The notes beneath the pieces are model-generated. The model was given only the letters and a program-made list of their open reading frames with translations, was not told the DNA's origin and did not search any database. A DNA stretch of 64,000 bases, taken from assembly GCF_024623785.1 (NCBI RefSeq), contig NZ_JANKBZ010000030.1:62001-126000 (forward strand). Reading direction: 5' to 3'. The position numbers and the translations under genes were made by a program. Source of the stretch: Archangium lipolyticum. Lineage in GTDB: Bacteria > Myxococcota > Myxococcia > Myxococcales > Myxococcaceae. Shown in pieces: positions 54,747-64,000 of this stretch. Position 1 is the stretch's first letter; the number at the start of each line of letters is the position of its first letter.

Positions 54747-55961
54747 TCACGGCATCTCCGTCTGGCCCTGGCGGCGCAGGAAGGTGGGGATGTCGAACTG
54801 GTCCTCGTCCAGGGGCAGCGCCGCGTCCTTCACCACCGCGGTGCGGCTGGCCAGCGAGCGCCCATCCACCGAGGCCATCGTCCGCACACCAGCCTTGGCG
54901 GGCACCAGGCTGGCCACCTCCTCGCGCGCCGCGGTCAGCGAGGCGGGCGTGGGGCGGGACACCACCGGCACCTGCACCACCTGGGGGACCTGGCGCACCT
55001 TCGCATCGCGCGACACGAAGCCCGTGGCGATGATGGTGATCTTCACCTCGTCGCGGATGTTGTCGTCGATGAGCGAGCCGAAGATGATCTCCGCCTCGCC
55101 ATCGGCCGCGTCGTGCACCAGCGTGAGGGCCTCGTTGACCTCCTGGAGGGTCATGTCGCGGCCGCCGGTGATGTTGATGAGCAGGCCGGTGGCGCCGTCG
55201 ATGGAGACGTCCTCCAGCAGCGGGCTGGAGATGGCCTGCTGCATGGCGTTGAGCGCGCGCTTGTCGCCGGAGGCGTGGCCGGTGCCCATGAGCGCCAGAC
55301 CCTTGTCGCTCATGATGGTCTTCACGTCGGCGAAGTCCACGTTGATGTAGCCGTGGTACTGGATGAGGTCCGAGATGCCCTGGACGGCGTTGAGGAGCAC
55401 CTCGTCGGCGCGCTTGAAGGTCTCCAGCAGCGGCATGGGCTCGTTGCTCAGGGTGAGCAGCCGCTGGTTGGGGATGGTGATGAGGGTGTCCACCGCGGCC
55501 TTGAGCTCCACCAGGCCCTGCTCCGCCTGCTTGCGGCGCTTGTTGCCCTCGAAGAGAAAGGGCTTGGTGACCACGCCCACGGTGAGGCAGCCGAGGCTCT
55601 TGGCGATGTCGGCGATGATGGGCGCCGCGCCCGTGCCGGTGCCACCGCCCATGCCGGCGGTGACGAAGACCATGTCCGCGCCCTCGAGCATGGAGGCGAT
55701 CTGATCGCGCGACTCGAGCGCGGCCTCGCGGCCCATCTCCGGGTTGGCACCCGCGCCCAGGCCCTTGGTGAGGGTCTGGCCGAGCTGCAACCGCACGGGC
55801 GCCTTGTTGGCGGCCAGCGCCTGCACGTCGGTATTCGCGGCGATGAAGTCGACCCGCTCAAGCTTCGCCAGGATCATCGTGTTGACCGCGTTACAGCCGG
55901 CGCCACCGACGCCGACGACACGAATCTTTGCGGCCTGCTTGTTCTGGTCGAACTGGTCCAT
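54747..55961 (-). CDS. ftsZ: Cell division protein FtsZ
   Basis: This 404-residue tubulin-like GTPase forms the cytokinetic Z-ring. The GTP-binding loop GMGGGTGTG is at 103-111, the first nucleotide motif [12 protein letters not shown] at 16-27, and the C-terminal conserved peptide DIPTFLRRQ, which binds FtsA and ZipA-type partners, is at about 391-399. The start ATG 55961 has AAGGAA four bases upstream. Upstream on the same strand lies the giant CARDB lipoprotein gene, not ftsA or ftsQ, so this copy is outside the usual dcw order. Two hairpins separate it from that gene. Confidence 0.95.
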
Positions 55962-56113
55962 GTGGTTCCTTCTTTCAACGCAGGTCACACGTGCCCGCGC
56001 GCGCCCCTGCAGACACCATCTTCAGCAAGTCGCGATCTTTGGCAAGTTCTCAGCTACGAACATGTAGCGCGACGTTGCCGTGCCAAGTCGTCACAGGCAC
56101 TTACGCGGAAGCT

Positions 56114-56206: not shown

Positions 56207-59200
56207 CTACTGAACGGTGACAGGGCCGCCCACGAGCGCGTTGTTGCTCTCCAGGAGCTCCTCATGCTGCCCGGCCGGGTCCACGATTCCGCCCAGGTAC
56301 CAGCGCCCCTTGGCCAGGGAGGGAGTCCAGTCCGAGAGCTGAATCGTCCTGCACTGCCCCGGAAACATCTGGCCCGTGGTGGCACTGGAGACGTAGACAT
56401 CCCCCGGGTACTGGGATGACGGATGGACGGAGGTGTCCGAGGAGAAGACGAGCTCCACGGTCGTGCTGGCCGCGTCGTCCCCCTGGTTGCACACGGTGAT
56501 GGAGGCGTCGAAGGACATGCCCGGACGGACGCTCGCCGGCCCCGTCACCTCGGTGACAGCGAAGTCCACCCCCGTCCCCATGCTCACCTCGCCGCTCACG
56601 AACACGTTGTTGTCCTCGAAGAACTCCGGCGTGTTGCCGTCCGGGTCCACGAAGGCGCCCATGCGCCAGGCCCCCGACAGGTAGGGCACGCTCCCGGACA
56701 CCTCCACCGGAACGCACTGCCCGGCGGGCAGCGGCCCGGTGTTTCCGCTGGCGAGCCACACGTCTCCGTATGGCTCGAAGGGCACGGAGGGAGACTCGTC
56801 CTTGAAGAGCACGAGCACCACGTGCGAGGAGGCACGCTGGAGTCCCCGGTTGCACACGGTCGCGGAGCCGCTGATTGAAGCACCCGGCTGCAGGCGCGCC
56901 GGGAGGGACACGGCCTCGATGACGAGGTCCGGCTGGTACCCCACGCCGACCCGGCCGCCCCGGTACGTGTCGTTGCTCGTGATGAGCTCCTGCTCCCTGC
57001 CTCCGGATCTGATGAGGGTCCCCACGTGGTACACGCCCTCGGGCACGGAGACAGAGACGGAGGACGTCAACGGCCGCGTCTCGCACGTTCCGGGAGACAG
57101 ATACGCGAACACGGAGCCGAGGAAGAAGTCGTCACCTCCGGACGAGTCCGGCCAGTCGATGGTGGTGTCCTTCGAGAGGACGACGTCCACGCTCGCGCTC
57201 CCGTAGCGGGTGCCCTGGTTGCACACCGTGACGGACACGGGGAGCTCCGCCCACGGTTCCACGCTCGTCGGAGCCGTCACCGCCGTGACGACGAAGTCCG
57301 TCCCGACGCCGATGCCGAACAGACCACTCGCACGCGCGTTGTTCTCCTCGGAGAGCTCCGGCTGCCGCTCATATGGATCGATGAAGGCACCCAGGTGATA
57401 GACGCCCTCGCTCAGCCCGTGGGCGACGGAGGCCTGCGCGGACACCGGCACCGTGACGCACTGACCTCCAGGCAACGGCCCGACGGACGACGTACTGCTG
57501 GGCCAGAAGTCCCCATATCCCGGGGGCGCGATGACCTCATCCGCCGAGAGCGCGAGCAGCACCTCCGTCGTGATGGACGGCACGGTGCCCTGGTTGCACA
57601 CCGTGACGAGTGCCTGGAAGGACGACCCCAGCTCCACGTTCGCTGGCCCCGTCACCGACTGGACGACGAGGTCCGGCTGGTTGCCGATGACCATCTGACC
57701 GCCCGCGTGCGCGTTGTTGTTCTCGATGAACTCCAGCTGCTCGTTGTCCGGATCCACCACCGCGCCCAGCGTGTACGTCCCTTCTGGCACGAAGTTGAGG
57801 TCGGCCCGCACCCGCACCGTGTCGCAGTGCTCCGGCGCCAGGCTGCCGAAGAAGAAGGAGTCCACCTGGATGTCATCGGACGATGGACCCTGTCCGGAGA
57901 TGACCGGGTCCGGAGACACGAAGACAGCCACTTGCGGATGACCCCATTCGGTGCCCTGGTTGCACACCGTGACGGACACGGTGAAGGAACCGTCCGTCCT
58001 CGCGCTCACCGGCCCCGTCACCGCCGTGACGATGAGGTCCGGCGCATGGCCGATCCCCATCAGGGCACCCGCGTGCGCGTTGTTGCTCTCGAGGAACTCC
58101 GGCACTCCGTCGACCGGGTCCGCGATGGCCCCCAGGTGGTACGTCCCATCGGGCAGGGAAGGGGCCTGAGCCGACACCGCGACCGGAGTGCACTGCCCCG
58201 GCTCCAGCGGACCCACGACCGCGCTCCCGGCGAGGGTGTCTCCCCCAACCTGCGGCCCCGGCAGGGAGATGACCGCATCCGAGGAGAGCAGGAGGGCCAG
58301 ATCCGTGGAACCCCGCACGGTGCCCTGGTTGCACACCGTGACGGACGCGGTGAACAAGGCTCCCGGCACCCGGCTCGCGGGACCCGTCACCGCCGTGACG
58401 GCGAAGTCCGGCAAGCTGCCGATGCCAATCGAACCTCCCGAGGACGCGTTGTTGTGCTCGAGCACTTCCAGCTGGCCGTTGGCCGGGTCGGCGATGGCAC
58501 CCAGATACCAGACCCCCTCGAACGAGGCGGAAGCCTGCGCGGACACCGGCACCGTGGAGCACTGCCCCGGCTCCAGCGAGCCCACGCCCGCGCTCGCGAG
58601 CACCACGTCCCACTCCGAGAGCGGCGTGCCCGGTGCGAGGATGACCTCGTCACGGGACAGGAGGAGGGCCACGTCCGTGGAGCCACTCGAATGACCCTGG
58701 TTGCACACCGTGGCGGACGCGGTGAAGGCGTCACCCGGCCTGACGCTGCTCGGTCCCGACACCTGGGTGACGACGAAGTCCGGCCCATCCCCGAACCCCA
58801 TCCGGACGCCCGCACGTGCGTTGTTGCTCTCGATGAACTCCCGCTGGAAGTTGGTCGGGTCGACGATGGCGCCCAGGTACCACGAACCCTGGAGCGAGGT
58901 GCTGACCTCCCACTCCACGGGAACGCACTGCCCCGGTGGCAGGTAGCCCAACGGCGTGTTCCCGAGGAACACGTCTCCCCCCGGACTCTGTGCTCCCGCG
59001 GGCAGGGAGATGTCCGGATCGGACGACAGCACGAACAGCACATCCGTGCTGCCCTCCTGGATGCCCTGGTTGCACACCGTCGCGGTCACGTGGAACGAAG
59101 CCCCCGAGCGCACGGTCGCCGGACCCGACACCTCCTGGACGGTGAAGTCCGGCCCGAAGCCCACGCCAACCTGGACCGGTCCGGACGCGTTGTTGGACTC

Positions 59201-62200
59201 GACGAGCTCGTTCTGGATGTTGGACACGTCCGCGACGGCTCCCAGGTTGTACGTCCCCGGGAACTCGTAGAGCTCTTGGGGAAGCGAGGTGGACAGCGGC
59301 ACCTGGGCGCACTGCCCCGCCCCCAGGAACACGTACGAGGACTGGCCGAGGAAGAAGTCTCCCTCGGCCTGCATCGGCCCCGGTGTGCCGGGGACCGTGT
59401 CGAACGACGCGAAGAATCCCACGTCCGTGGAGCCCTCCACGAAGCCCTGGTTGCACACCGTGGCGGACACGGAGAAGGAGTAGCCCGGAAACACGCTCGG
59501 CGGAGCGCTCACCTCCTGGATGACGAAGTCCGGCCCGGTCCCCACGCCCAGGGGCCCTCCCACCCGGAAGTTGTTGCTCTCGATGAGCTCCCCCTGGGTG
59601 AGGAGCGGGTCGGCCCCCGCGCTCAGATACCAGGAGCCCTCGGGCAGGGGGGTCCGCAGGGATACGGTGGTGCACTCCCCCACCCCCAGCGTCCTCACGG
59701 GCACGGTGCCGAGCGGGGTGGGCCACTCCCCCCGCGGATTCGTCGGAGAAGCCACGGCCGGTGAGGAGGACAGCAGCATCATCACTTCCGTGGCCCCGCT
59801 CGCGGTGCCCTGGTTGCACACCGTGGCGGACAGCGTGGCGGTGTCACCCGGCCTCACGTTCACCGGGCCCGACACCTTCGAGACAATGAAGTCCGGCCCA
59901 TCGCCGATCCCCATCACCTCTCCCACGCGGGCGTTGTTGTTCTCGAGCAGCTCCACCAGGGAGTTGTGCGGATCCACGATGGCCCCCAGGTGCCAGGCCA
60001 CGCCGGACATCGGCGCACGAACCTGCGCCGACACCGAGGCACATACCCCCGGCGCGAGCCCGTTCAGGCCCGAGCTCCCGAGCGGAAAGTCGGCCGAAGT
60101 GCCCGGCATGCCCAGGACCTCGTCCTCCGAGAGGAGGAAGAGCACGTCGGAGCCACCGGGCTGGGTGCCCTGGTTGCACACCGTGGCGGACACCGTGAAG
60201 AGGGCGTCCGGCCGCGCGTTCGCCGGCCCCACCACCTTCTTGACGATGAGGTCCGGCCCGTAGCCACTCCCCATCATGTCTCCCACTCGCGTGTTGTTGC
60301 GCTCGAAGAGCTCACGCTGGACGTCGAGCGGATCGACGATGGCGCCCAGGTACCAGGAGCCCTGGGGCAGGAAGGACTCGATGGACGAGGTCAGCCGATG
60401 CGTCACGCATTGCCCGGGAGCGAGCAAGCCCAGGGACGCCCGGCCCGCGGAGACATCCGAGCCTCCGGGAGACCGGGGGCCGGTGATGACGGTGTCGGAC
60501 GACAGCACCAGCAAGACCTCGGCATCGCCGCTCGTGGTGCCCTGGTTGCACACACTGATGAAGACCGGGAAGTTCTCGCCCGGCCGCGAAAGCGATGATC
60601 CCGTCAGCGCCTTGACGATGAAGTCCGGCGCGTCCCCCCACCCCACCCGCTTCCCCGCGAACGCATTGTTGCTCTCGAGGAGCTCCACCCTCTTCTCGCC
60701 CGGGTCGGCGATGGCGCTCAGGTGGTACTCCCCCGGCGGAAGGCCACTGGTGGCGAGGAAGGTGGCCTGCACCGGCACCTTGCCGCACTCCCCTGGCGGC
60801 AGCAGTGGCCCCATGGCCTCCCCGAGATACACGTCCCCATCCTGGGCCGGCGTCCCCGGCGGGATGACGGCCTCGTTGCTGGACAGCAGGAGCGCCACGT
60901 CGGTGTCCATCCCCACGGTGCCCTGGTTGCACACGGTGATGGACGCGGTGAAGGACTCGCCCGGCCGCACGACTTCCGGTCCCGTCACCTCCGTGACGAC
61001 GAAGTCCGGCCGGTGGCCGAGCCCCAGCTGGCCTCCCACGCGGGTGTTGTTGCTCTCGATGAGCTCCTGCCGGGAGCCGAACGGGTCCACGATCGCCGCC
61101 AGATGGAACGGGCCCTCCACCGAGGGAGCACCGCCATTCATCGAGAGCGCCTTGCAGGCGCCCGGCGCGAGCACGCCCACGGCGTTCTCCGCCACCGTGA
61201 GCATCTGCCCGGACTGAGAGGAGAGCGCCGGGTCGGACGACAGCAGGAGCCTCACCTGGGTGTCGGCCCCCGCGGTGCCCTGGTTGCACACGGTGACGGC
61301 CGCCGTGAGGGGCCCTCCTGGCCGAGCGCTCGCCGGACCCACCACCTTCGTGACGACGAAGTCCGGCCTGTCTCCCACCCCCAGGGGCCCACTGATGGAC
61401 ACGTTGTTGCTCTCGAGGAGCTCCCACGAGCTGTTGTACGGGTCGATGAGGGCACCGAGGTACCACTCCGCCCCGAAGGACTGGGCGGAGACCGACGTCG
61501 TCACCGGGACGCACTGGCCCGGCAACAGGGTACCCGTCGACAGGTAGCTCAGGGTCTGGTCCGCCTGCTCTATCTCGAACCCGGGAGGGGAGAGCCGCGC
61601 GTCGGGAGACAGCACCAGCATCACGTACGAGCTGTCCGGAACGGTTCCCTGGTTGCACATCGTGAGGGAGATGGAGAGGGGCGCCCCCTGCTTCACGCTC
61701 GGGGGCACGCTCACCTCGCGGATGGCGAAGTCCGGCCCCTGTCCCACCCTCAGGAGCCCACCTGCCCGGGAGTTGTTGCCCTCGAGGAGCTCCGGCGCAG
61801 TGTCGCGCGGATCGACGATGGCCCCCAGGCGGTACTCCCCATCCGGGAACGTGTAGGGGAAGGACACCGGGCCGGCCACCGCGAGCGTCCGGCATTGGCC
61901 CGGCTCCAGCGGATCCACGGAAGCCCGGGCGACGAAGATGTCTCCATCACCGGCCACAGGGGCCGGCGGGAGGATGACCGCGTCCTTGGACAGGTAGAGC
62001 TCCACCTCCGTGGCGCCCCCTACCTGGCCCTGATTGCAGACCGTCACGGTCGCCCCCAGGGACTCGCCCTGCATCGCGGAGACCGGCCCCGTCAACGCGG
62101 CGACGACGAAGTCCGGCCTGACTCCCACCGCCAGCGTGCCGGTCGTGAAGGCGTTGTTGCTCTCGATGAGCTCCTGAATGGAGTTGGAGGGGTCGACGAT

Positions 62201-63184
62201 GGCCCCCAGGTAGAGCTCTCCCTGCGAAGGCGGGGGCACGGTGGCGATGACATTGGCCGGCACGGAGGTGCAGGCACCGGGTGCCAGCGTGCTCACGGGG
62301 AACGAGCCCACGCGAAGATCCTGGTCCCTGGAGAGGCTCGCGTCCTTGGAGAGGAACAGCTCCACCTGGGTGCTGGCAGCGGCGGTGCCCGGGTTGCACA
62401 CGGTGATGGACGGGGTGAAGGAGTCACCCGGCGCTACCACCTTGGGAATCCCCTTCATCTCCGTGATGACGAAGTCGGGCCGGGAGCCCACCCCCAGGAG
62501 CGTGCCGCGCCCGTTGTTGGTCTCGATGAGCTCCGGCTTCACATTGCTCCGGTCCGCGTAGGCGCCCAGGTACCAGGCCCCCTGGGGAACCGATGGGACG
62601 GTGCCGGTGATGCTCACCTGAGCGCACTGACCTGGATTCACCGTCGGCGCTGACACGCTGGCGCTGATGGACTGGTCGGCCGTCGTGATGGCCTCATCCT
62701 GAGACAGCATCAGGCTCAAGGACGTGCTGTCGGGTTTGGTGCCCTGGTTGCACACCACGACACTCACCGGCATGGGCTGGCCGGGCTGCGCGCTGGCACG
62801 CCCACGCACCTCCCGGATGACGAAGTCTGGCAGGGAGCCAACCCCCACCTGGCCACCGGCCAGCGTGTTGTTGGTCTCGGAGAGCTCCGATGTCCAATTG
62901 GCCCGGTCGGCGATCGCCCCCACGAACCAGGAGCCCGAGACCACATTGGCGGTGACCAGCACCTCGCGCGCGGCGCACTCGCCCGGCACCAGGGTGGCCA
63001 ACTGGACCGACCCGACGGACAGGTCCTGCCCCGCGGTGATGATCGCGTCCTTCGACAGGACGAGCTCCACCACCCCCGGGTCGCCAGATGAACCGCCCCG
63101 GTTGCACACCGTGACGCCCACCCGCAGCGCGACTCCGCTCGACACGCTCGGCGGTGCGCTCACCTGCTGGATGAAGAAGTCCGG
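56207..63184 (-). repeat. 19 tandem coding repeats of about 367 bp
   Basis: The CARDB units recur as imperfect tandem DNA repeats, best seen in the CCCTGGTTGCACACCGTG-like segment that encodes the CNQG loop and appears about every 367 bp. The homology makes the array a likely site of recombination and copy-number change. Confidence 0.8.
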
Positions 63185-63319
63185 GCCCTCGCCCACCGCG
63201 GCCACCAGGGCCCCCGGCTCCTCGGGTCCGGCCTCCTGCTCACGCGTTTCTCCACAGCCCACCGCACCGAGCAACGTGCTCGCGACGAGGGCCCTGGCCC
63301 ATCGGATGTCCCTGCCCAT
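56207..63319 (-). CDS. Giant lipoprotein of 19 CARDB-type repeats
   Basis: This 2370-residue protein has a lipoprotein signal (LLGAVGC, Cys22) and then 19 tandem beta-sandwich units of about 122 residues, without other domains. Each unit opens like PDFVVTxVTGP, contains a CNQG (or CNRG, CNPG) and ends near GQCxxVP and LGAIxDP...ESNN. Each therefore has a conserved Cys pair that could form one disulfide. CARDB units are adhesion-type Ig-like folds, and the protein probably forms a long surface fibre. The start ATG 63319 lies before the signal peptide, with AGGGGG upstream. It is transcribed toward ftsZ, 246 bp beyond its stop. Confidence 0.85.
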   Translation of the reverse strand: MGRDIRWARALVASTLLGAVGCGETREQEAGPEEPGALVAAVGEGPDFFIQQVSAPPSVSSGVALRVGVTVCNRGGSSGDPGVVELVLSKDAIITAGQDLSVGSVQLATLVPGECAAREVLVTANVVSGSWFVGAIADRANWTSELSETNNTLAGGQVGVGSLPDFVIREVRGRASAQPGQPMPVSVVVCNQGTKPDSTSLSLMLSQDEAITTADQSISASVSAPTVNPGQCAQVSITGTVPSVPQGAWYLGAYADRSNVKPELIETNNGRGTLLGVGSRPDFVITEMKGIPKVVAPGDSFTPSITVCNPGTAAASTQVELFLSKDASLSRDQDLRVGSFPVSTLAPGACTSVPANVIATVPPPSQGELYLGAIVDPSNSIQELIESNNAFTTGTLAVGVRPDFVVAALTGPVSAMQGESLGATVTVCNQGQVGGATEVELYLSKDAVILPPAPVAGDGDIFVARASVDPLEPGQCRTLAVAGPVSFPYTFPDGEYRLGAIVDPRDTAPELLEGNNSRAGGLLRVGQGPDFAIREVSVPPSVKQGAPLSISLTMCNQGTVPDSSYVMLVLSPDARLSPPGFEIEQADQTLSYLSTGTLLPGQCVPVTTSVSAQSFGAEWYLGALIDPYNSSWELLESNNVSISGPLGVGDRPDFVVTKVVGPASARPGGPLTAAVTVCNQGTAGADTQVRLLLSSDPALSSQSGQMLTVAENAVGVLAPGACKALSMNGGAPSVEGPFHLAAIVDPFGSRQELIESNNTRVGGQLGLGHRPDFVVTEVTGPEVVRPGESFTASITVCNQGTVGMDTDVALLLSSNEAVIPPGTPAQDGDVYLGEAMGPLLPPGECGKVPVQATFLATSGLPPGEYHLSAIADPGEKRVELLESNNAFAGKRVGWGDAPDFIVKALTGSSLSRPGENFPVFISVCNQGTTSGDAEVLLVLSSDTVITGPRSPGGSDVSAGRASLGLLAPGQCVTHRLTSSIESFLPQGSWYLGAIVDPLDVQRELFERNNTRVGDMMGSGYGPDLIVKKVVGPANARPDALFTVSATVCNQGTQPGGSDVLFLLSEDEVLGMPGTSADFPLGSSGLNGLAPGVCASVSAQVRAPMSGVAWHLGAIVDPHNSLVELLENNNARVGEVMGIGDGPDFIVSKVSGPVNVRPGDTATLSATVCNQGTASGATEVMMLLSSSPAVASPTNPRGEWPTPLGTVPVRTLGVGECTTVSLRTPLPEGSWYLSAGADPLLTQGELIESNNFRVGGPLGVGTGPDFVIQEVSAPPSVFPGYSFSVSATVCNQGFVEGSTDVGFFASFDTVPGTPGPMQAEGDFFLGQSSYVFLGAGQCAQVPLSTSLPQELYEFPGTYNLGAVADVSNIQNELVESNNASGPVQVGVGFGPDFTVQEVSGPATVRSGASFHVTATVCNQGIQEGSTDVLFVLSSDPDISLPAGAQSPGGDVFLGNTPLGYLPPGQCVPVEWEVSTSLQGSWYLGAIVDPTNFQREFIESNNARAGVRMGFGDGPDFVVTQVSGPSSVRPGDAFTASATVCNQGHSSGSTDVALLLSRDEVILAPGTPLSEWDVVLASAGVGSLEPGQCSTVPVSAQASASFEGVWYLGAIADPANGQLEVLEHNNASSGGSIGIGSLPDFAVTAVTGPASRVPGALFTASVTVCNQGTVRGSTDLALLLSSDAVISLPGPQVGGDTLAGSAVVGPLEPGQCTPVAVSAQAPSLPDGTYHLGAIADPVDGVPEFLESNNAHAGALMGIGHAPDLIVTAVTGPVSARTDGSFTVSVTVCNQGTEWGHPQVAVFVSPDPVISGQGPSSDDIQVDSFFFGSLAPEHCDTVRVRADLNFVPEGTYTLGAVVDPDNEQLEFIENNNAHAGGQMVIGNQPDLVVQSVTGPANVELGSSFQALVTVCNQGTVPSITTEVLLALSADEVIAPPGYGDFWPSSTSSVGPLPGGQCVTVPVSAQASVAHGLSEGVYHLGAFIDPYERQPELSEENNARASGLFGIGVGTDFVVTAVTAPTSVEPWAELPVSVTVCNQGTRYGSASVDVVLSKDTTIDWPDSSGGDDFFLGSVFAYLSPGTCETRPLTSSVSVSVPEGVYHVGTLIRSGGREQELITSNDTYRGGRVGVGYQPDLVIEAVSLPARLQPGASISGSATVCNRGLQRASSHVVLVLFKDESPSVPFEPYGDVWLASGNTGPLPAGQCVPVEVSGSVPYLSGAWRMGAFVDPDGNTPEFFEDNNVFVSGEVSMGTGVDFAVTEVTGPASVRPGMSFDASITVCNQGDDAASTTVELVFSSDTSVHPSSQYPGDVYVSSATTGQMFPGQCRTIQLSDWTPSLAKGRWYLGGIVDPAGQHEELLESNNALVGGPVTVQ

Positions 63320-63461: not shown

Positions 63462-64000
63462 TCAGGGGATGCCCTTGAACTGGAAGGCGAGCGCGATCCA
63501 CGGCAGGGCCTGACTCACCTCCACGCCCGTGCGATAGCGGTGGCTGAGGAACCACTGGGAGATGAGCACCAGGGTGGGCGCGTTGAAGAGCCGGTCGGCC
63601 TCGTCATGGAAGGTATAGGCGAGGAAGGGGCCCACCCGGTGGGTGGTGGGATTGAGCCCGATGTCCATCTCTCCGGCCGGGTAGTCCTGGGGCCGGAAGA
63701 AGCTGCCAGTGGCCGAATAGCGCAGGCCCACCGTCAAGCGCCCCGCCAGGTAGAGCAGATCCGCGTCGTTGCTCGCCACCCAGCCACCATTGGGCACCAC
63801 CGCGTCCAGCACCGGCTCGTAGAAGACGCGGTCCCCGTCGCGTAGCCGCAGGTCGAAGCGGAAGAAACGCGGGTTGCTGCGCACGGCAATGGGGCCCACC
63901 TTGAACTGCAGCATCGCGGCCAGGGTCAGCAGGGTGCCACTGGAGACGTAGCTCGTCCCCGCGTCACCGAGCTCCGCCAGGCGCCGGTCGCTCGCGTCCG
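63462..64000 (-). CDS. Outer-membrane barrel-like protein, 5' end beyond the window
   Basis: The frame is open to the right edge, so the N-terminus is missing; about 178 residues are visible. They alternate hydrophobic and polar residues with Gly and aromatics (LQFKVGPIAVRSNPRFFRFD, DADLLYLAGRLTVGLRYSAT), as in a beta-barrel, and end LPWIALAFQFKGIP. An internal ATG at 63914 lies in the middle of a strand and is not the true start. It precedes the CARDB gene on the same strand with a 142-bp gap. No specific family is recognised. Confidence 0.55.
   Translation of the reverse strand, partial: DASDRRLAELGDAGTSYVSSGTLLTLAAMLQFKVGPIAVRSNPRFFRFDLRLRDGDRVFYEPVLDAVVPNGGWVASNDADLLYLAGRLTVGLRYSATGSFFRPQDYPAGEMDIGLNPTTHRVGPFLAYTFHDEADRLFNAPTLVLISQWFLSHRYRTGVEVSQALPWIALAFQFKGIP

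Follow-up and report, generated by a model that had tools for sequence, protein, structure and literature searches.

We analysed a window of 64,000 nucleotides from the predatory soil myxobacterium Archangium lipolyticum (GCF_024623785.1, contig NZ_JANKBZ010000030.1, positions 62,001 to 126,000 of the forward strand), the host assembly of which comprises 12.6 Mb in 75 contigs. The subject is an open reading frame (ORF) of 2370 residues at 56207..63319 on the minus strand, its coordinates, strand and length being exact in the ORF listing. The ORF encodes a lipoprotein-type protein with 19 tandem CARDB units, as identified by profile matches, and is denoted here as the rod gene. Its ATG at 63319 directly follows an in-frame TGA and is preceded by a purine-rich GAGGGGG at a distance of a few bases, and the start aligns with an internal Met of the ORF in another Archangium species (G003). 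Scanning for promoters came up empty, and the terminator-like sites barely exceeded chance expectation. The protein begins with a signal peptide (residues 1-21, MGRDIRWARALVASTLLGAVG; 63257..63319, minus strand as for all features of the gene), which is similar in the G003 copy. It is followed by Cys22, the predicted lipid-attachment residue (63254..63256), a linker of 23 residues (residues 23-45; 63185..63253) and the 19 units (residues 46-2370). The lipobox reads LGAVGC, the next residue is Gly, and Cys22 is the sole Cys outside the units. By motif pattern, a lipobox with its Cys near residue 15-35 corresponds to a type II signal, and we take the N-terminus to fit the lipoprotein pattern PS00013. 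According to the sorting rules, a lipoprotein with Gly after the lipidated Cys is not retained in the inner membrane.

The array consists of exactly 19 units of 117-127 residues each, starting at residue 46. The Pfam CARDB family (PF07705; gathering cut-off 22.7 bits) matched the protein with 527 bits, of which 17 stretches pass singly, and a genome-wide CARDB search returned 17 rows for the gene, each above the cut-off. A profile built from the protein's own units matched all 19 at 122-163 bits. Based on this profile, the units, each with two Cys, are located on the minus strand at 62834..63184 (unit 1), 62480..62830 (unit 2), 62120..62479 (unit 3), 61739..62116 (unit 4), 61367..61735 (unit 5), 61010..61366 (unit 6), 60632..61009 (unit 7), 60260..60628 (unit 8), 59900..60256 (unit 9), 59537..59896 (unit 10), 59156..59533 (unit 11), 58787..59152 (unit 12), 58415..58783 (unit 13), 58046..58411 (unit 14), 57677..58042 (unit 15), 57305..57676 (unit 16), 56933..57301 (unit 17), 56573..56932 (unit 18) and 56213..56566 (unit 19). 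The 39 Cys residues of the protein are Cys22 and two in each of the 19 units. Seven unit positions are invariant throughout (D2, C27, N28, G30, C70, E100 and N105), and D93, E103 and N106 are kept in 18 of the 19 units, the exception being unit 17. By Pfam and the unit profile there is no tip domain, since unit 19, the C-terminal end of the rod, leaves one residue behind it in the profile coordinates. Weaker Pfam matches (five families), including alpha-2-macroglobulin, were rejected as separate domains because no single stretch passed, and an NCBIfam match of 17 bits against a cut-off of 666 was discarded. A preliminary description of this DNA had presented the ORF at 56207-63319 as a 2370-residue lipoprotein of 19 beta-sandwich units with one Cys pair each, which agrees with our count. 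It had also called the protein nothing but repeats; the units do fill the rest of the chain, but the signal and the linker precede them.

The fold was predicted with AlphaFold2 (AF2) for units 12, 13 and 14, from an alignment that also included 65 further three-unit segments from family members. The model has seven strands per unit (predicted local distance difference test, pLDDT, 94.3; predicted template modelling score, pTM, 0.82). Its best solved match was the CARDB domain of PF1109 from Pyrococcus (3idu; Z 14.1, root-mean-square deviation, rmsd, 2.2 over 102 residues), followed by 2kl6, the nuclear magnetic resonance counterpart of 3idu (Z 13.4). When Foldseek was used alone, integrins and macroglobulins were on top with query TM-scores of 0.17-0.34, a ranking that reflects the general tandem immunoglobulin (Ig)-like shape. 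A single-sequence search of the PDB with the rod returned nothing, and the unit profile matched 2kl6 (E 0.0008) and 3idu (E 0.0016) weakly. As modelled, the rod units have the seven-stranded beta-sandwich of the solved CARDB domains. The D...E..E.NN stretch of the unit, with residues kept in 18 or 19 of the 19 units, aligns with that of 3idu and 2kl6, and the 3idu entry is described as 'in complex with di-metal ions'. From this alignment we infer that the rod units may bind metal. While the PF1109 domain has the same fold by model and profile and the same loop, it is a single domain, whereas the rod has 19 in tandem, with a Cys pair in each, in a bacterial lipoprotein.

Pure CARDB arrays with two Cys per unit are a myxobacterial family. 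A first contig search with the whole rod protein gave no relative. At E 1e-8, 48 of the 58 Myxococcaceae genomes had unit matches; at 1e-12, matches occurred in 62 of the phylum's 146 genomes, and 54 of those 62 belong to Myxococcaceae. Both counts include the host genome. The named loci, 22 in number, include two Sorangium records as well as Pyxidicoccus, Hyalangium, Citreicoccus and Myxococcus xanthus AM003, the last with an array of 11 units (L100). The host genome has five pure arrays, namely the rod, L063 (19 units), L066 (15), L067 (8) and L068 (10), which amount to 71 units, and 71 matches at E 1e-8 were found among 76 candidates scored. We fetched 36 family ORFs from the host and other genomes, two of which are cut by the locus end, with arrays of 4-23 units. 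In these fetched loci, where Cys content was counted, 395 of 398 units contain exactly two Cys. A simple pattern finds a lipobox-like motif in 31 of the 36 ORFs, and two more read VMGC or IMGC; among the remaining three, one L075 ORF starts in doubtful sequence, L101 opens directly with its first unit, and L102 shows no motif of this kind. The last unit lies at most 12 residues from the C-terminus as read in 34 of the 36, the exceptions having 34 and 665 residues. Two further host loci, L069 and L076, each have two CARDB units that match the profile and contain no Cys, and the Cys pair therefore marks a subfamily. The length and purity of the rod had been described as unusual, which is not borne out, as purity is the rule in the family and longer members exist (L074 with 2729 residues and 23 units; L091 with 2760 residues and 20 units); L063, with 2376 residues as read, also exceeds the rod. 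Among the papers listed in literature searches on CARDB proteins, many of them off-topic, none dealt with this array family, and the CARDB proteins treated in excerpts of PMC8416519 and PMC3848476 serve as background.

The number and order of the units in the rod are conserved. Its copy in G003, a single-contig genome, is 78% identical over the whole length and also has 19 units, and the reciprocal best unit lies at the same place for 19 of 19. When the rod was compared with its paralog L063 (54% identical), the units paired at the same place in 17 of 19 cases by alignment score and in 15 of 19 by identity, while 10,000 permutations of the units never gave more than seven best matches at the same place. 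Judged by these pairings, most of the 19-unit order was probably in place before the two paralogs diverged. Within the rod, the mean identity is 42% among all units and 44% between neighbours, the highest pair has 59%, and 13 of the 18 neighbouring pairs are below 50%. No exact repeat within the gene reaches 36 bp, the longest measuring at least 30 bp. Repeat collapse by assembly error, which the preliminary description had raised as an objection to itself, is thus unlikely given such short exact repeats and the 19 units of the single-contig copy. Recent recombination inside the array was likewise rejected, considering the identities of 42-44% and an order kept between species and largely between paralogs. 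Repeats recombine readily only at a higher identity than these units retain, so the length of the rod would be stable.

Over longer times, the unit number changes, as G001 has 13 units at the rod locus, and these pair less clearly with those of the rod (7 reciprocal, 6 same-place). In G003, the copy of the paralog L063 (L064, downstream of 10231) stops after unit 13 and is without the last six units; a piece of unit 14 is detectable downstream of it in another frame. Some sibling arrays change by whole blocks. L066 (host, C27; 15 units) and L074 (G003; 23 units) match unit by unit, and the difference consists of two four-unit blocks. All 20 unit pairs with at least 70% identity in these two arrays, up to 100%, are spaced 4, 8 or 12 units apart, and their neighbouring units have at most about 50% identity. 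Exact repeats reach at least 240 bp in L067, at least 720 bp in L080 and at least 120 bp in L079, and the unit number is kept between host and G003 for L067/L080 (8 and 8) and L068/L079 (10 and 10). The units of L067 (host, C8) and L080 (G003) are 93-100% identical with a count-based dS of about 0.05, less diverged than other genes compared by count, as if recently transferred. In 11 of the 36 family arrays, some unit pair has at least 80% identity. As far as two species show, the expectation that the repeats should recombine does not hold for the rod, where 19 of 19 units are in order with G003 and 17 of 19 with the paralog, although some siblings do change by blocks, and G001 has 13 units. 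All comparisons of unit number were made between species.

A codon model gave the rod an omega (ratio of nonsynonymous to synonymous substitution rates) of 0.34 between the host and G003 (2dlnL 157 versus omega = 1), which shows purifying selection on the gene; together with the full-length copy in G003, this rules out a chance reading frame. Simple counting had given a ratio of 0.82 for the gene and values above 1 for some units, but strong codon bias inflates this figure and it was set aside. In the same species pair, two upstream genes with signal-like N-termini have omegas of 0.13 and 0.15, and four downstream genes including ftsZ have 0.01-0.04. As expected for an exposed protein, the rod evolves faster than its neighbours. 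Other family pairs gave 0.31 (L063/L064), 0.28 (L068/L079), 0.32 (L099/L100) and 0.15 (L096/L098). By segment, strands B and G of the rod units are slowest (0.18 and 0.17), and the D/E strand and the FG loop are fastest (0.60 and 0.61). Conservation between species is lowest in units 5-11 by a permutation test with a window length picked post hoc (p 0.001), whereas the paralog comparison gave p 0.12 and the two conservation profiles correlate with rho 0.45 (p 0.054). The lower conservation of these middle units is suggestive only.

The rod gene lies directly upstream of ftsZ on the same strand. The ftsZ gene (54747..55988, minus strand) is the next gene downstream, 218 bp from the rod ORF as listed, and is given as context only. 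Among six Archangium genomes, the locus upstream of ftsZ holds 19 units in the host (G000) and G003 and 13 in G001. On the other side, the window ends in the 3' part of an uncharacterised gene (63462..64000, minus strand), which encodes 323-324 residues from an internal ATG with a signal-like N-terminus. It has no Pfam match, and its predicted model (pLDDT 35.8) was too poor for a fold call and was not used. A search of 39 genomes, among them the host's own, found homologues of this gene in 18. Further upstream lies a lipoprotein-like protein of 673 residues, for which I-set is over the Pfam cut-off and no single stretch passes. Both upstream genes (63462..64000 of the window and L061:12462-15496) have counterparts that likewise precede the rod gene in G003. 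There, a DUF2378 gene (L062:5378-6019) separates the rod gene from its upstream neighbour, and none was seen in the 142-bp gap at this position in the window. The site upstream of ftsZ in G005 carries a different long ORF of 1564 residues with repeats that look cadherin-like (L073:47-4741), and a short ORF beside the G001 rod gene (L065:10718-10996) reads like it. Long surface-type genes may have a hotspot here.

It could be argued that the rod is only weakly constrained and acts as a passive spacer or shield, with several paralogs and easily lost. Its presence varies within Archangium, omega is 0.34, and the G003 copy of the paralog lacks the last six units. Such a role is very unlikely, however, since both Cys, E100 and N105 are present in 19 of 19 units and D93, E103 and N106 in 18, the order has largely been kept since the paralog split, and omega is well below 1.

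Based on the sequence and the predicted model, we favour, at a probability of roughly 0.5, an outer-membrane and probably surface-exposed rod, stabilised by disulfides and metal, for contact with or spacing from other cells, matrix, prey or substrate. The protein would be exported by Sec, lipidated at Cys22 and, with Gly following this residue, sorted to the outer membrane. Each Cys pair would be oxidised to an intra-unit disulfide, and a divalent metal would be held at the conserved D-P...E..E.NN loop. The outcome would be a chain of stapled Ig-like sandwiches forming one long stalk. An Ig-like domain is 3.5-4 nm long, and an extended chain of 19 would measure about 65-75 nm. As this is too long for an upright stance in the periplasm, the rod most likely projects from the cell surface. 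The preliminary description had the protein reaching tens of nanometres from the membrane; the length itself would be tens of nanometres if the chain is extended, but the reach presumes surface exposure, which goes beyond the sequence. Because there is no tip domain, any binding would lie in the units themselves. The four sibling arrays of 19, 15, 10 and 8 units may provide rods of several lengths for one cell.

A less probable but sizeable alternative is a periplasm-facing outer-membrane lipoprotein that would serve as an envelope scaffold, either flat against the membrane or threaded through the peptidoglycan. What the sequence gives is a lipoprotein signal alone, with no surface-sorting tag among the Pfam and NCBIfam matches, and the upstream neighbour with its signal-like N-terminus is kept nearby in G003. 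To be accommodated in this way, however, a 19-unit rod must lie flat; it also evolves faster than its neighbours, and no peptidoglycan-binding domain is found among its Pfam matches.

Several observations weigh against a surface contact rod. A search of the host genome for SlipAM/T11SS gave no match, hence no known surface-export partner, and was uninformative as no control genome gave one either. No adhesive domain is found among the Pfam matches of the rod, and unit 17 is without three of the metal-loop residues. The fast evolution of the rod is also compatible with relaxed constraint, and it is not uniform in the family, as the Myxococcus sibling pair L096/L098 evolves no faster than ordinary neighbours. 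Furthermore, no CARDB unit was found at the rod locus in G002, G004 and G005, leaving the gene there in three of six genomes, and G004 has no unit match at E 1e-8 genome-wide. With the rod absent from the locus in half of the six genomes, its role is dispensable.

Among known proteins, RbmA is secreted, has two domains and no anchor, and serves Vibrio as a cross-linker of the biofilm matrix. By analogy, the rod might be shed with outer-membrane vesicles or cleaved and cross-link the extracellular matrix. RbmA, the Vibrio cholerae biofilm scaffold (4be6), ranks right after the CARDB structures in the comparison with the rod model, its two tandem beta-sandwich domains aligning with two CARDB units (Z 9.7), and multivalent tipless arrays suit such a role. 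However, this match has an rmsd of 11.5 over 203 residues, shares its Z with a glycosidase module and factor XIII and reflects general tandem Ig-like/FnIII folds, and most family members carry the N-terminal lipobox. We consider a matrix or vesicle component unlikely.

As a surface stalk, the rod would resemble periscope proteins (Whelan 2021, PMC8201768), in which tandem domains also form a long stalk anchored at the bacterial surface. In the excerpts of that paper, however, periscope repeats are highly identical (at least 80% in the survey) and variable in number between strains, whereas no pair of rod units exceeds 59%, adjacent units average 44%, and the number is 19 in two species. The 11 family arrays with a unit pair of at least 80% are nearer to the periscope type. 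The same excerpts state that large multidomain proteins usually have less than 50% identity between adjacent domains, which was proposed to limit misfolding. Fibrillar adhesins with stalk domains only, described in passages of PMC9210967, are like the rod in having stalk domains without a known adhesive domain, and stalk-domain binding and steric regulation are raised there. Those passages treat Firmicutes and Actinobacteria, and the terms CARDB and Myxo do not occur in the text of that paper; the rod's predicted anchor is a lipid. Of the hallmarks of fibrillar adhesins, the rod has the repeated stalk domains (19 units) and lacks the tip adhesive domain. Also comparable are the surface contact proteins of Myxococcus, TraA, whose Cys-rich tandem-repeat region was proposed as a stalk in the sections seen of PMC3325183, and CglB, as cited in an excerpt of PMC12282271. 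Unlike these proteins, the rod has no PA14, vWA or MYXO-CTERM among its Pfam and NCBIfam matches. Myxobacterial cells also exchange lipoproteins with one another.

A further reading, which we regard as a long shot, is that tipless disulfide-stapled CARDB rods of set lengths serve myxobacteria as contact rods in the manner of cadherins or contactins. The order would then be kept because positions differ functionally, e.g. in zipper-like pairing between rods of kin cells, and the unit numbers of the paralogs would fix cell-cell spacings. If so, frozen and periscope-like arrays of one domain would exist within one genome, and amplification by four-unit blocks, as in L066/L074, would leave neighbouring units dissimilar. 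Myxobacteria live by contact, in swarming, fruiting, predation and membrane exchange. Taken all together, one genome with one fold offers a natural comparison of diverged arrays of fixed number with arrays of near-identical units, so that the trade-off proposed between variation in length and misfolding between domains can be tested directly, with disulfides added.

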